A DNA stretch of 49,326 bases from a virus. How positions within the stretch are numbered: the stretch's first letter is position 1; each line of letters starts with the position of its first letter. Below, one piece after another: positions 28,444 to 37,684 of this stretch. The stretch spans positions 1 through 49,326 of IMG/VR virus record IMGVR_UViG_3300032088_000012. One strand, given 5' to 3'. The notes below the pieces were generated by a model, which had not been told where the DNA came from, did not search any database, and worked only from the letters and a program-made list of their open reading frames with translations. Position numbers and translations under genes: made by a program.

Positions 28444-28459
28444 TTAATTGGAGAAAACT

Positions 28460-28768
28460 ATGGACTACTCAAAAGAAATGCTTGCCACTATGCGTAAAGC
28501 CGCTCCTCTCAACCTTGATATTGTCAAGGGCTTCATTGCAAAAGATTCGGCTTTCAAGCTCGCCTCTACGCAATCCATCATCGCCAAGGCGAAAGCCGAA
28601 GGCATAGATTATATCGCAAAAGCTCCGGCAGCGAAACGCGCAAAGGGCGCAACAAAGGCACAGATTGTTTCGGCAATCGAAGGCAAGACCAACGCTAAAC
28701 TTGGAGGCTTAGAGAAGGCTACAGCGTCATCGTTGGGAAAGCTCTTAGATGCTTTGCAATCTGCTTAG
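28460..28768 (+). CDS. Small protein of the window's DNA-binding-like paralog family
   Basis: ATG 28460 has GGAGAAAACT upstream, so it is preferred to the TTG at 28448. The 102-residue basic protein has an N-terminal part ending QSIIAKAKAEGIDYI and a C-terminal part KAQIVSAIEGKTNAKL, GLEKATASSLGKLLDALQSA. Both parts align by eye with the proteins at 32254, 33214 and 44186. Near its end it carries a GGGAAAG slippery heptamer that can shift ribosomes into the hydrophobic frame that follows. Confidence 0.8.
   Translation: MDYSKEMLATMRKAAPLNLDIVKGFIAKDSAFKLASTQSIIAKAKAEGIDYIAKAPAAKRAKGATKAQIVSAIEGKTNAKLGGLEKATASSLGKLLDALQSA
28735..28741 (+). promoter_or_regulatory. Candidate -1 frameshift heptamer G GGA AAG
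   Basis: The heptamer is in the correct phase of the 28460 gene (TTG GGA AAG) and is the same one lambda uses for its G-GT shift. Five bases downstream lies a weak bulged hairpin (28747-28762). A -1 shift enters a long open hydrophobic frame lacking any ATG, GTG or TTG start. Confidence 0.5.
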
Positions 28769-28938
28769 ATTGGTTAGGTGCGGCGGCTCTTGCTGTCGCT
28801 CCTTTCATCATCGATACACCAGAAGGTAAAGCATTAGCGGCTACAGGTTTAACGCTTCTCACTATTCAAGCAATACGAAACAAGACAGCAAACCTAATCG
28901 CCCTAAACATTATTGGAATTACAGGTTATTTATTATGA
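28741..28938 (+). CDS. Hydrophobic membrane segment, probably expressed by -1 frameshift
   Basis: From the slippery site the -1 frame reads 65 residues: ALRCFAICLDWLGAAALAVA, then PFIIDTPEGKALAATGL, TLLTIQAIRNKTANLIALN and IIGITGYLL, about three hydrophobic stretches. Its TGA overlaps the next ATG as ATGA, strong evidence that it is translated. No conventional start codon exists between the upstream stop in this frame and the hydrophobic core. Alternatives are a rare start codon or a sequencing error. The fusion product would have 159 residues. Confidence 0.55.
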   Translation, partial: ALRCFAICLDWLGAAALAVAPFIIDTPEGKALAATGLTLLTIQAIRNKTANLIALNIIGITGYLL

Positions 28939-29408
28939 TTATTTTCGACTTAGATCACACCGTCATTGATTCATCACATCGTTGTATCACTCGCGATGAT
29001 GGAACGCTCGATCTCGACGCTTGGCGCGCTCGCTCTACTTGGGAATTCATTTCGCGCGATACGCTTCTACCGATTGCGTCACTATGGCGAGCGGCGATGA
29101 AGCGCGGCGAGCATATTGTGATCTGTACGGCTCGCGTTATGGGCAAGGCTGATTTTCTTTTCCTCGAAGCCTACGGCTTGCGCTTTGATCGTTGCCTATC
29201 ACGCAACGGCGAAACAGATTCACGCTCTGACGTTAATCTGAAGCGTGACTTGCTCACTGGATACGCTCGCGAGATTGGTTATTCTTGGCGGCAATTCACT
29301 AGCGAGGCTATCGCTTACGATGACAATGCGGCGATACTCGACTACTATGCAAGCACGGGTATTCTGGCACATAATGCAATTACTTTAAACGCGAGGCTCT
29401 CACGATGA
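28935..29408 (+). CDS. HAD-superfamily phosphatase
   Basis: The 157-residue protein starts MIIFDLDHTVIDSSHRC, with D5-x-D7-x-T9 the HAD nucleophile motif. Motif II is around VICTARVMG, a lysine follows in VNLKRDLL, and motif IV is AIAYDDNAA. Small phage HADs of this kind include 3'-phosphatases and deoxynucleotide 5'-phosphatases; the substrate cannot be told. ATGA overlaps couple it to both neighbours. Codon use is richer in GCG and CGC than in the genes to the right of 31.4 kb. Confidence 0.82.
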   Translation: MIIFDLDHTVIDSSHRCITRDDGTLDLDAWRARSTWEFISRDTLLPIASLWRAAMKRGEHIVICTARVMGKADFLFLEAYGLRFDRCLSRNGETDSRSDVNLKRDLLTGYAREIGYSWRQFTSEAIAYDDNAAILDYYASTGILAHNAITLNARLSR

Positions 29409-30073
29409 AGAAAAAAATAATCATGGTATTGGATACCGAAACCGCCGATCTCACTGGCAGCATCTATGATATCGGCTACACTATTACAGATAAACAGGGA
29501 AACATTGCACTCACTCGCAACTGGCTCGTCGAAGAAATTTTTACGGATGCGAAAAAAATGATGGGCGCATTCTATGCAGGTAAGATATTCTCGCACTATG
29601 CCCCGATGCTACAGCGAGGCGATATTGAATTGACCTCTTGGTCAACAATCATCGAAACAATGCGAACCGATATCTTGGAGCATAATGTTAATGTTTTGGC
29701 TGCTTATAATTTACCTTTTGATACTCGCGTTATGCGTAACACTCATGCGGCACTAGGGTATACTGATAAGGTATTACCTCACGCGCTCGACCAGCTTTGC
29801 ATTTGGCAATTCGCTTGCGAAACTAAACTCAATACGCGACTTTACAAAACTCTTGCAGCAGAACAGGGATGGGTTAGCGATGCGGGAAACATTCGGACAG
29901 GCGCGGAATACGCTTACCGATTTTGTGCAGGTGATTGGGGTTTTATCGAGGATCACACAGCTTTGAGCGATGCAATTATCGAGACGGAAATTCTGGCGCG
30001 ATGCTTTGCGACTAACGCAAAAATTCCCTACAATAAAAAATCTGCAATGCCTTGGAGAATCGTAAATGCCTAA
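29405..30073 (+). CDS. DEDDh 3'-5' exonuclease (DnaQ-like)
   Basis: The 222-residue protein shows the exonuclease signature: D10-x-E12 in VLDTETADLTG, D106 in YNLPFDTRVM, and H184 with D189 in EDHTALSDAIIE. The acidic set plus histidine is the DEDDh class of DNA and RNA 3'-5' exonucleases. It may proofread, degrade host nucleic acid, or process RNA. It forms a tight operon with the HAD and PPK2 genes (4-8 nt overlaps). Confidence 0.88.
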   Translation: MKKKIIMVLDTETADLTGSIYDIGYTITDKQGNIALTRNWLVEEIFTDAKKMMGAFYAGKIFSHYAPMLQRGDIELTSWSTIIETMRTDILEHNVNVLAAYNLPFDTRVMRNTHAALGYTDKVLPHALDQLCIWQFACETKLNTRLYKTLAAEQGWVSDAGNIRTGAEYAYRFCAGDWGFIEDHTALSDAIIETEILARCFATNAKIPYNKKSAMPWRIVNA

Positions 30074-30683
30074 AACAAAAACACTACTGGCGGAACTGAA
30101 CCGCTTGGTTGAAAACAATAGCGACTCGCTCGCTATTGTTTTCGAGGGCAGGGATTCGGCAGGAAAAAGCGGCACGATTAAAATGCTAACAAAATATTTG
30201 CCGCCGAATTTATTTTCAATCGAGCATTCTAAAAAGCCTAGCAAGCGCGCAATGGGGAACTGGTTTGGTTATTGGAACAAGCGTTTACCAAAGCGTGGGC
30301 AGGTTCGATTTTTTGATCGCTCTTGGTATTCTCGCGCATTGGTGCAACGTGTCAACGCATGGTGCAGCGAACGTAAAGCGCAAAATTTTCTAGCGAATGT
30401 TATTCCTTGGGAGCAACAATCTGGAACGCGCATTATTAAATTCTACCTCTCAATTTCAAAAGAAGAACAGCAAGCGCGATTAAATGAGAGAAAAAAATCC
30501 CCTCTCGTTTACTGGAAATTTTCTGCAAATGATAAACTTGCGCTCGACTCATTCGATCGCATGACTCTCGCAAAAGAAGATTGCATCGGGACGGACTGGA
30601 TTGTTATTGACTTCAACGATAAAAAAGCAGGTCGCAAAATTTTACTAGAACGCTTGGTACAGGAAATTAAAAATGGACAATAA
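30066..30683 (+). CDS. Polyphosphate kinase 2 (PPK2 family)
   Basis: The 205-residue protein has the PPK2 Walker A motif FEGRDSAGKSG (residues 26-36), the Walker B-like FFDRSWYSRA (82-91), and the characteristic late block LSISKEEQQARLNERK, YWKFS and TDWIVIDFNDKKAGR. PPK2 enzymes transfer phosphate between polyphosphate and nucleotides, often making NTPs or NDPs. It is compact for the family, which is mostly 230-300 residues. PPK2 in a phage is unusual. It could recharge nucleotides for DNA synthesis from host polyphosphate; direction and substrate cannot be read from sequence. Confidence 0.88.
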   Translation: MPKTKTLLAELNRLVENNSDSLAIVFEGRDSAGKSGTIKMLTKYLPPNLFSIEHSKKPSKRAMGNWFGYWNKRLPKRGQVRFFDRSWYSRALVQRVNAWCSERKAQNFLANVIPWEQQSGTRIIKFYLSISKEEQQARLNERKKSPLVYWKFSANDKLALDSFDRMTLAKEDCIGTDWIVIDFNDKKAGRKILLERLVQEIKNGQ

Positions 30684-30762
30684 CGCAATTACCGCTTTAC
30701 TTTTTATTCTGGTTTTCGGTTTCGCATTTTATTTACCGATTGGTTTTTTACTCTCATTCTAA
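30673..30762 (+). CDS. Tiny membrane peptide
   Basis: ATG 30673, overlapping the PPK2 end by 11 nt, encodes 29 residues (MDNNAITALLFILVFGFAFY then LPIGFLLSF), a single membrane span. GGAAATTAAAA precedes the start. It closes the operon just before a strong terminator. Short membrane peptides are common in phages; function unknown. Confidence 0.5.
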   Translation: MDNNAITALLFILVFGFAFYLPIGFLLSF

Positions 30763-30776
30763 AACGCTCATTTCAG

Positions 30777-30820
30777 AAAATCCGCCTCGCACAAAAAATG
30801 CCAGGCGGATTTTTTTTTTT
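30777..30820 (+). terminator. Strong rho-independent terminator
   Basis: AAAATCCGCCT (30777-30787) pairs with AGGCGGATTTT (30803-30813), 11 bp, followed by an uninterrupted T-run to 30820. It ends the HAD-exonuclease-PPK2 operon. Confidence 0.92.
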
Positions 30821-30888: not shown

Positions 30889-31182
30889 GGGCGCCAGTGC
30901 GAAAGCGAAGTGCAATTGCGATGGTGTAGCCTGCGCCATTGTACTAAATCGAGCGGGGTTTGTCAAGTCTTTTTTTCACGTTCGGTGAAATTAATGCCAG
31001 AAGGGCAGGTCTTGGTAATATATTGTCAAACCCCGTGACAATTTATTGTCAATCAACAGGCGCCGAAGTGCGAAGTCGAAAATCAACGCAAATTGCCGGG
31101 CGGCGCCATTGTACCAAACCTATGCGGGGTTTGTCAAGTACTTTTTAACTTTTCCTGAATTTAATGCGCAAGGGCAGGTCTT
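30889..31182. repeat. Long imperfect direct repeats in a gene-free region (candidate origin)
   Basis: Two copies, about 30889-31013 and 31060-31182. The best-conserved parts are GCGCCATTGTAC, GCGGGGTTTGTCAAGT, a T-run, and AAGGGCAGGTCTT. The stretch 30763-31461 has no gene I can support on either strand; it holds these repeats, hairpins and AT-rich blocks. That composition suits a replication origin or a recombination/packaging region, but nothing proves which. Confidence 0.75.
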
Positions 31183-31402: not shown

Positions 31403-31431
31403 TTGACAAAAGGGTTCGAGTTTAGTATAAT
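31403..31431 (+). promoter_or_regulatory. Sigma70-type promoter
   Basis: TTGACA (31403-31408), 17 bp, TATAAT (31426-31431), both perfect, with TATA following. It drives the small genes from 31462. Confidence 0.88.
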
Positions 31432-31814: not shown

Positions 31815-32199
31815 GAGCTGGAATAAGCATGAAGTAGAAGCGTGTATTAGCACGATTGTGTACGCTTTCAATACTTTGGACATTCCTTTTAAGACGAACA
31901 TTGAGTTGAAGTTTGAGAAGCAAAGCACTCAATGGTCAGGACTAGCGCTACAAAATAGTTTGAAGAAATATGAGGTAAGACTCTTCCATTCTCCAGATAT
32001 TTATGATATGATAGCTACTGTTCTTCACGAGATGGTTCATATTAAACAGTTTCGAGCAGGAGAACTAGGGTACACCCCAACGCTAACATGGCATGACGGT
32101 ACTAGGTGTAATGATGTAGAGTATGATGACCAGCCCTGGGAGAAAGAAGCCTTTAAGTTAGAAAAGAAATTGGTAAAAAAGTTATTGACAAAGACCTAA
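31789..32199 (+). CDS. SprT-like zinc metallopeptidase
   Basis: The 136-residue protein has HExxH in TVLHEMVHIKQF (residues ~82-93) and a downstream glutamate in PWEKEAFKLEKKL, the gluzincin-type arrangement of SprT/Spartan-like proteins. Such proteins cut DNA-bound or crosslinked proteins in cells; a phage role could be clearing host proteins from DNA. The promoter of the next transcript (32185) lies within its last codons. Confidence 0.78.
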   Translation: MLDIVKQHKSWNKHEVEACISTIVYAFNTLDIPFKTNIELKFEKQSTQWSGLALQNSLKKYEVRLFHSPDIYDMIATVLHEMVHIKQFRAGELGYTPTLTWHDGTRCNDVEYDDQPWEKEAFKLEKKLVKKLLTKT

Positions 32200-32213
32200 A
32201 ACTTCAGTATAAT
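32185..32213 (+). promoter_or_regulatory. Sigma70-type promoter
   Basis: TTGACA (32185-32190), 17 bp, TATAAT (32208-32213). It overlaps the end of the SprT-like gene and drives the 32254 gene. Confidence 0.88.
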
Positions 32214-36712: not shown

Positions 36713-36875
36713 ATTTTGCCCTACCTGTGACAAAGAGTTCAAAGTCGTACTCGAAGCTGCACGGTTTTGCTCAAGAGAGTGCGAAGAGGAAGCTGCCTCC
36801 CAATATGTCGAAATGAAGTTCACTACGGCGGCAGATATGCTTCGTGAAGAGCTAAAAAAGATTAAAGAAGATTAG
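36699..36875 (+). CDS. Small zinc-finger-like protein with TTG start
   Basis: From TTG 36699 the frame reads 58 residues: MNTTKFCPTCDKEFKVVLEA, ARFCSRECEEEAASQYVEMK and a helical basic end. C7-x2-C10 and C24-x3-C28 make a treble-clef/FCS-like zinc site. It ends 5 bp before the tmRNA acceptor segment, so the RNA may be transcribed with it. Function unknown. Confidence 0.68.
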   Translation: MNTTKFCPTCDKEFKVVLEAARFCSRECEEEAASQYVEMKFTTAADMLREELKKIKED

Positions 36876-36879
36876 AATT

Positions 36880-37170
36880 CGTTGAAGCATGTAATAGGAA
36901 GTTTGGACTCGGGTGCAAATCCCGATAGCTCCACCAAAAGAACACTGTCGGTGCTGTTGGAAAGCGCAGATGGACAACACTAGGACGCCGTTCGAATCGG
37001 AGCAGTGTTCTTTTGATGGGGCTATTCATAGATTCGACAGACAACTGAAAGCATGTGGAGAATAGGTGCGGGAGCTACCTTGAATGCAACAAACTCTATA
37101 AATGCAAACGACAGCGTTTATTCCTTAGCTGCATAGCTAAGCGGGGTCTCAGCAACCTTGTTAACCAACT
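36880..37170 (+). ncRNA. ssrA: Circularly permuted two-piece tmRNA
   Basis: The 3' acceptor part comes first: GAAGCATGTA, T-arm TCGGG-TGCAAAT-CCCGA and TAGCTCC-ACCA, ending at 36936. After an 81-nt intervening segment the 5' part begins at 37018 with GGGGCTA and the tRNA-like AGATTCGACAGA, then the tag frame at 37104-37136: ANDSVYSLAA and TAG. GGGGCTA pairs over 7 bp with TAGCTCC, including the G3-U70 wobble that marks alanine tRNAs. The tag is close to E. coli ANDENYALAA. CAGCA/TGCTG downstream suggests a pseudoknot or hairpin arm. Exact outer ends are estimated. Confidence 0.93.
36937..37017 (+). other. Intervening segment of the permuted tmRNA with a tRNA-like T-arm
   Basis: The segment starts and ends with a perfect inverted repeat (CAAAAGAACACTG at 36935-36947 and CAGTGTTCTTTTG at 37003-37015) stacked on the tmRNA acceptor stem. 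Inside are D-arm-like GTGC...TTGG...GCGC and T-arm-like CCG-TTCGAAT-CGG (36988-37000). With AACACTG/CAGTGTT it makes a tRNA-like fold lacking a clear anticodon arm. It is presumably cut out during maturation. Confidence 0.75.
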
Positions 37171-37175
37171 GCTGG

Positions 37176-37205
37176 AGCCTTCTCTGTTCTGGAGAGGGCT
37201 TTTTC
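37176..37205 (+). terminator. Rho-independent terminator after tmRNA
   Basis: AGCCTTCTC (37176-37184) pairs with GAGAGGGCT (37192-37200), 9 bp with one G-U, followed by TTTTC. It is the natural 3' end of the tmRNA precursor. Confidence 0.82.
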
Positions 37206-37267
37206 ACGTTAGTAAGAAGTACCGAAAGGACTTCAAAGTCCCGCCGAAAGGGGGAAAGGAGATATGT

Positions 37268-37684
37268 ATGACAACACATAAATTGTCTATGGCAGACCTG
37301 CCGAAATTTTTTCTAGGGTTTGACCGCTTACAAGATGACTTCTTTGCAAGTACAGTAGATGGAGGTTATCCTCGATATAACGTCTTAAAGTCCGGACCCA
37401 GTTCCTACAGAGTAGAAATTGCAGTACCAGGATGGCATAAAGAGGATATTGAAATCTCACTACATAAAAGCGTACTTAGCGTAAAAGGCACTACAAAGCA
37501 AACGGAAAATCCGGACGAAACATACGTCTATAAAGGATTGAGTGGTAAATGCTTTACACGCAATTTCCGAGTAGGGGATCATATTAAACTTTCAAAAGCA
37601 TATATGAATAGGGGGCTGCTTTGTATTGATCTTCAGGAAGAGATTCCAGAAGAAGATCGCCCAATTACTATATCAATATCATAG
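37268..37684 (+). CDS. Small heat shock protein Hsp20 (IbpA-like)
   Basis: ATG 37268 has AAAGGAGATATGT upstream; the frame extending to 37055 crosses the tmRNA and is rejected. The 138-residue protein has an alpha-crystallin domain: YRVEIAVPGWHKEDIEISLH, SVLSVKG, then YVYKGLSGKCFTRNFRVGDH and LLCIDLQEEIPEEDRPITIS. It is an ATP-independent holdase. Phage Hsp20 genes occur in many marine phages and may protect virion proteins during assembly. Confidence 0.92.
   Translation: MTTHKLSMADLPKFFLGFDRLQDDFFASTVDGGYPRYNVLKSGPSSYRVEIAVPGWHKEDIEISLHKSVLSVKGTTKQTENPDETYVYKGLSGKCFTRNFRVGDHIKLSKAYMNRGLLCIDLQEEIPEEDRPITISIS

Follow-up and report, generated by a model that had tools for sequence, protein, structure and literature searches.

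The gene cluster and the phage that carries it

The window, by which we mean the whole stretch of DNA analysed here, is an IMG/VR virus contig of 49,326 bases. On its plus strand, genes for a small repeated-family protein, a HAD phosphatase, an exonuclease and a polyphosphate (polyP) kinase of the PPK2 family follow one another in that order, the phosphatase and exonuclease genes overlapping by 4 nt and the exonuclease and PPK2 genes by 8 nt. The PPK2 ORF at 30066-30683 begins with ATG and encodes 205 aa, exactly as an earlier sequence-only reading had placed it. The following features were recorded in the region.

28448..28768, plus strand: small protein, 106 aa, from a repeated family that opens the cassette (Family 0, found in 65 of 69 loci)
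28935..29408, plus strand: HAD phosphatase related to the T5-family deoxynucleoside-5'-monophosphatase (Dmp), 157 aa (homology and HAD motifs)
29405..30073, plus strand: DEDD-type exonuclease-like protein, 222 aa (PHROG match, invariant residues)
30066..30683, plus strand: compact Ser-type PPK2 gene (PF03976, AF2 model, superposition on FtPPK2, clade support 100/100)
30147..30167, plus strand: Walker A GRDSAGK, residues 28-34 (D30 and K34 correspond to Ft D62 and K66; invariant in 69/69)
30315..30323, plus strand: Walker B DRS, residues 84-86 (D84 and R85 correspond to Ft D117 and R118; invariant in 69/69)
30330..30332, plus strand: class-signature position Ser89 (Ser in 69/69 compact viral proteins)
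30477..30575, plus strand: lid module, residues 138-170 (R138, R142 and K151 correspond to Ft R174, R178 and K187)
30673..30762, plus strand: possible 29-aa membrane peptide MDNNAITALLFILVFGFAFYLPIGFLLSF, overlapping the end of PPK2
30775..30815, plus strand: hairpin resembling a terminator, with a T run, downstream of PPK2 (-21.5 kcal/mol, z -4.2)

After PPK2 comes a long stretch without a plus-strand gene, in which promoter-like sites sit: two exact TTGACA-N17-TATAAT sites at 31403-31431 and 32185-32213 (plus strand), inside a repeated element of 57 nt, and two strong ones on the minus strand at 31137 and 30966. A different very short hydrophobic ORF was seen just before PPK2 in four loci (L013, L017, L020 and L046), whereas that of the window overlaps the end of the gene.

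Terminase, head, tail and endolysin genes lie to the left of PPK2, and ThyX, a helicase, both halves of an NAD ligase, a D5-like regulator and DnaB lie to the right. The terminase shows 49% identity over 98% to T5-like phages of Serratia, Pectobacterium and Vibrio, and the genome combines this T5-type terminase with the split NAD ligase and the D5-like regulator, as expected of a T5-like phage. Since the terminase is similar to those of T5-like phages and phage genes stand on both flanks, PPK2 lies well inside such a phage, in agreement with the earlier statement that the gene is phage-borne. Host contamination was rejected on the same flanking genes and on the terminase, which is 69-91% identical in 17 of 20 PPK2-bearing records. 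A megablast of positions 26000-49326 against phage records gave no match, and a marine origin is suggested by the relatives.

A permuted two-piece tmRNA was predicted at 36844-37227 on the plus strand (ARAGORN tag ANDSVYSLAA; Rfam RF04321, 95.2 bits). Permuted tmRNA is typical of alphaproteobacteria, among others, and may be a hint of the host of this phage; one is reportedly also mentioned for a marine phage of OM43 (PMC9004378). An Hsp20/alpha-crystallin-like gene lies at 37055-37684 on the plus strand (PF00011, 4.4e-15), and its listed start overlaps the tmRNA prediction.

The HAD protein is 34% identical (E=2e-19) to a Dmp-family protein of Vibrio phage phi 3, and its DxDxT, T, K and DD motif residues are invariant. 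Matches to the PNKP phosphatase family were also obtained (Pfam PF25109 in 9 of 16 members; PHROG polynucleotide kinase, 2.7e-16), but by its sequence the protein is closer to the T5-family Dmp proteins. It was reported that T5 dmp is a dispensable pre-early gene within the terminal repeats (PMC8108384), and that T5 Dmp hydrolyses deoxynucleotides and so prevents the recycling of host dNTPs (PMC12265719). The exonuclease-like protein (29405-30073) matched a PHROG DNA polymerase exonuclease subunit at 1e-6 and had no Pfam match; D10, E12, D106, H184 and D189 are invariant in its alignment.

The neighbourhood was counted in 56 distinct loci having at least 2 kb upstream of PPK2. The HAD gene was found upstream in 54 of them, and 52 have the small membrane protein; the exonuclease was present in 35 loci and a different gene in 17, so that HAD together with one or the other occurs in 52/56. 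The nucleotide-metabolism setting proposed by the sequence-only reading is upheld, and ThyX and the MazG-like protein do occur in the phage, the latter as a MazG/PRA-PH protein. They are not the constant partners of PPK2, however; that place is taken by the Dmp-like HAD protein, often with the exonuclease. A different order was observed in five loci (L036, L041, L054, L060 and L061), where PPK2 is followed by cell-wall hydrolase-like and MazG/PRA-PH genes, and in L041 it comes after a MazG-like gene.

Two closely related phage contigs (loci L349 of G031 and L351 of G039) carry the cassette of membrane protein, HAD and exonuclease or alternative gene without PPK2, and L349 keeps the downstream genes too. 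These contigs rule out PPK2 as a core gene of the lineage; it is accessory, and has long stayed close to a single site in these phages.

Family, fold and class of the PPK2 protein

The PPK2 identity given by the sequence-only reading was borne out by family models, PDB relatives and the predicted fold. Pfam PF03976 matched the 205-aa protein with E=2.3e-46 (158.7 bits, cut-off 22.3) over model positions 15-223 of 229, and the best PDB relatives are all PPK2 (PA3455, 4e-40; FtPPK2 of Francisella tularensis, about 5e-36). The GRDSAGKSG, FDRSWYSR and SISKEEQ blocks on which that reading relied were all found. Of the NCBIfam models TIGR03707 was best, yet it scored below its cut-off, and there was no PHROG match.

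A first scan of virus contigs gave 8 PPK2 relatives, and a second, alignment-based scan confirmed 455 relatives among 500 candidates. The best 80 of the 455 were retained and, after deduplication, make up the 69 distinct compact viral proteins, that of the window included. Nearly all are 196-217 aa long (about 200 aa), while the nearest cellular homologues are mostly 250-290 aa (about 280 aa); the word compact, used in the earlier reading, is thus apt. Relatives in other virus contigs show 45-90% identity, and none of the cellular relatives found exceeds 42% across most of the protein. The dN/dS values are 0.062-0.069 between the window gene and three close relatives and 0.05-0.10 among those three, and they are approximate because dS is 0.7-1.2. 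The gene is under purifying selection. These values, together with relatives at 45-90% identity in other virus contigs, exclude a chance match. A recent transfer from host to phage found no support, as the cellular relatives are distant and PPK2 has a GC3 (0.417) close to the value for ThyX (0.398).

The equivalents of Ft D62, K66, D117, R118, R174, R178, K187 and K228, namely D30, K34, D84, R85, R138, R142, K151 and K186, are all present in the window protein and invariant in the 69 compact viral proteins. It was documented that alanine mutants of FtPPK2 at K66, R118 and R178 show weaker polyP binding and activity (PMC8776046). Other positions have changed: Ft H76 is Tyr in all 69 proteins, and the groove lysine Ft K184 is Val in the window and Thr in 52 of the compact proteins, so polyP binding may differ from that of FtPPK2. 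Ft R232 is Arg in the window protein and altered in many relatives. A degraded pseudo-enzyme was ruled out by the invariant residues and the dN/dS values. An inactive enzyme with a disrupted lid was to count against the sequence-only reading; R138, R142 and K151 of the lid are invariant in the branch, and the enzyme appears intact as far as its sequence tells.

The AF2 model built from a 70-sequence alignment (pLDDT 92.2, pTM 0.89, lid about 81-89) replaced an earlier model whose lid had a pLDDT below 50. It predicts a three-layer alpha-beta-alpha fold with a helical lid and superposes on polyP-bound FtPPK2 carrying a nucleotide analogue (5LLB) with Z 26.5 and rmsd 2.0 over 204 residues. In the structure search the top 25 entries were all PPK2, and the next fold was dTMP kinase at Z 14.6. 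The class II PPK2-II of Lysinibacillus bound to TMP also gave Z 26.5, equal to FtPPK2, so fold similarity does not discriminate the PPK2 classes. Among viral structure models the only close match was a jumbo-type protein named thymidylate kinase.

The class of a PPK2 is marked by the residue after Walker B, which is Asn in class I, Gly in class II and Glu in class III (PMC8776046). Ser89 of the window protein is none of these. Ser occupies the position in 69/69 viral proteins, which were found with patterns that do not include it, and in 65 of 66 sampled cellular relatives, a frequency that is biased because these were found partly with a Ser-containing pattern.

The first tree included two long rows (L159 and L101), and it was rebuilt without both. 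In the rebuilt tree the protein falls within PPK2 and not among non-PPK2 kinases, a placement that would have contradicted the earlier reading. The compact viral proteins are monophyletic (support 100/100), and sister to them stands a clade of Ser-type PPK2s that come mostly from marine bacteria (97/89; the join 91/71). Both group with the jumbo-phage PPK2 lineage on the side of class I, and the branch splitting Ser-type and class I proteins from classes II and III has support 100/99. Trees in which the proteins were forced to join class II or class III were rejected (p 0.001 and 0.0003), the class II rejection covering the rows used, from which the Bacillus/Lysinibacillus PPK2-II sequences were absent. 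A single viral clade of compact and jumbo PPK2s was not favoured, yet with p=0.26 it was not rejected. As the protein stands on the class I side but has Ser and not Asn, it is best placed in a Ser-type branch akin to class I and not in class I itself.

Possible role in infection

PolyP is a large bacterial reserve of phosphate and energy. On balance, we favour the reading that the gene encodes a working, trimmed PPK2 that uses host polyP to phosphorylate nucleotides, most likely (d)NDP into (d)NTP or ADP/GDP into ATP/GTP, within a run of nucleotide-remodelling genes. PolyP would be seated in the basic groove beneath the lid (R138, R142, K151 and K186), and Walker A (D30, K34), Walker B (D84, R85) and Mg2+ would position the attacking nucleotide phosphate. 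Phosphate from host polyP would then pass to the (d)NDP, and nucleotides would be recharged without ATP cost during the takeover. We infer polyP as the donor, an NDP as the acceptor, this direction of the reaction and its timing during infection. The (d)NDP acceptor is preferred because the tree sets the protein beside class I, and certain class I enzymes are reported to take every NDP, dTDP included (PMC8776046); the Ser signature and the changed groove residues make both substrate and donor less certain.

Because the gene shares one overlapping run with the Dmp-like phosphatase and the exonuclease, the enzyme may, together with a putative dNMP phosphatase and a putative DEDD-type exonuclease, reshape and recharge the nucleotides available to the phage during infection. 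Pure salvage would not be an obvious role next to Dmp, since T5 Dmp blocks the recycling of host deoxynucleotides (PMC12265719), and the cassettes without PPK2 indicate that it is dispensable in some relatives, which counts against the favoured reading. The interpretation in the sequence-only reading is supported in part: the PPK2 identity, the intact lid and the nucleotide setting stood.

Among the alternatives, the enzyme might act mainly on monophosphates, converting AMP or dNMP to NDP and catching dNMPs derived from host DNA before the phosphatase does. The Ser in place of the class I Asn, the equal Z of 26.5 to the TMP-bound class II enzyme and to FtPPK2, and neighbours whose expected targets are DNA ends and probably dNMPs all agree with it. 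On the other side, fold similarity cannot tell the classes apart, the sequence is nearest to class I (TIGR03707 best, though below cut-off), and the trees reject joining it to those class II rows that were included; we regard this acceptor as unlikely.

An extended form of the favoured reading, which we hold to be distinctly doubtful, is a takeover module powered by polyP: the exonuclease and the dNMP phosphatase would strip host nucleotides, and a dedicated, trimmed PPK2 of a fourth, Ser type with a specificity of its own would burn polyP and rebuild (d)NTPs, possibly from among the first-entering genes and blunting nucleotide-depletion immunity. A PPK2-bearing contig of 82,805 bases (G016) carries the terminase twice, at 1022-2323 and 78916-80217, with equal scores and 77,894 bases apart, and its ends therefore overlap by several kb. 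As a sign of terminal repeats this doubling was set aside; it is uninformative on first-step transfer, and the PPK2 of that contig lies outside the stretch.

Counter-defence could also be the main value of the gene, restoring (d)NTPs in hosts with nucleotide-depleting immunity. The dGTP-depleting system Clover targets T5-like phages, with escape mutations in dmp and nrdAB (PMC12265719), and PPK2 is variably present and adjoins a Dmp relative. A dNTPase that yields nucleosides, however, is not reversible by an NDP kinase, and we consider this main value quite improbable. Synthesis of polyP, serving phosphate storage, the lowering of NTP or altered polyP-dependent stress responses of the host, is very unlikely: some class I enzymes such as the PPK2 of Corynebacterium glutamicum favour synthesis, but PPK2s preferentially consume polyP (PMC8776046), NTP spent on polyP competes with phage DNA synthesis, and the neighbouring genes indicate nucleotides. 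We give just as little weight to a repurposed P-loop kinase without polyP use, either one half of a PNKP-like split end-healing pair with the HAD protein or an NTP-dependent nucleotide kinase; the PNKP-family scores of the HAD protein, the fold common to PPK2 and dTMP kinases (Z 14.6) and the loss of Ft K184 from the polyP groove are outweighed by the retention of all main polyP residues, PPK2 folds that are closest by a wide margin, a HAD protein nearer to T5-family Dmp proteins and HAD cassettes that also occur without PPK2.

If a phage enzyme does spend polyP, this would be a nucleotide route independent of ATP, and viral ppk2, until then an entry in catalogues, would become a function open to testing. 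For comparison the branch provides a defined protein set, a nearly fixed neighbourhood and natural PPK2-minus siblings, and it raises the question of how the signature Ser affects substrate choice.

Comparison with known systems

Viral ppk2 is a known kind of gene. Li et al. (2025, Water Res) reportedly surveyed it as a viral auxiliary metabolic gene. It has already been catalogued on metagenomic contigs (PMC9636769, PMC13188868), and the accessible parts of these two surveys give gene lists and describe no compact subfamily, class residue, T5 lineage or Dmp context. Our literature search, with most subscription papers outside it, found no tested role for a virus-encoded ppk2 and no description of the compact Ser-type T5-like branch or its Dmp-like context; in the literature found, these are undescribed.

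The PPK2s of jumbo and huge phages (LR756502, LR745206 and IMG/VR contigs) are also virus-borne and likewise fall towards class I in the tree, but they keep Asn in 80/80, are at least 325 aa long with an N-terminal extension, and take a separate position. This lineage comprises loci L189-L268, L183, L184 and L186, and some of its open frames run to 1,000-1,900 aa, which suggests fusions. In the record of Pseudomonas phage Y15 (OQ572415.1, UNVERIFIED; L188), a tandem PPK2 is nearly identical to P. aeruginosa PA3455 over the stretches compared by eye, and the deposit probably includes host DNA here.

The Ser-type PPK2s of marine bacteria (SAR92, Halieaceae, Marinimicrobia, OCS116 and Flavobacteriales) share the Ser and form the sister clade, but they are chromosomal, about 70-80 residues longer and at most 42% identical to the viral protein; no characterised member was found in the literature. 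FtPPK2 (class I; 5LL0, 5LLB) has the same fold over 204 of 205 residues (rmsd 2.0), the main catalytic and polyP residues in common and the same side of the tree. The window protein differs from it in its identity of about 35%, in Ser for Asn, in the changes of H76 to Tyr and K184 to Val, and in its length: an N-terminal helical stretch and the C-terminal tail are missing, and the loop that precedes the last strand is about six residues shorter.

Among the 16 phage records with a PPK2 match, no Demerecviridae record was seen. The T5 dmp module of the Demerecviridae resembles the present cluster in its related phosphatase, its similar phage type and its remodelling of the nucleotide pool, whereas the HAD protein of the window is shorter (157 against 209 aa) and is paired with an exonuclease.
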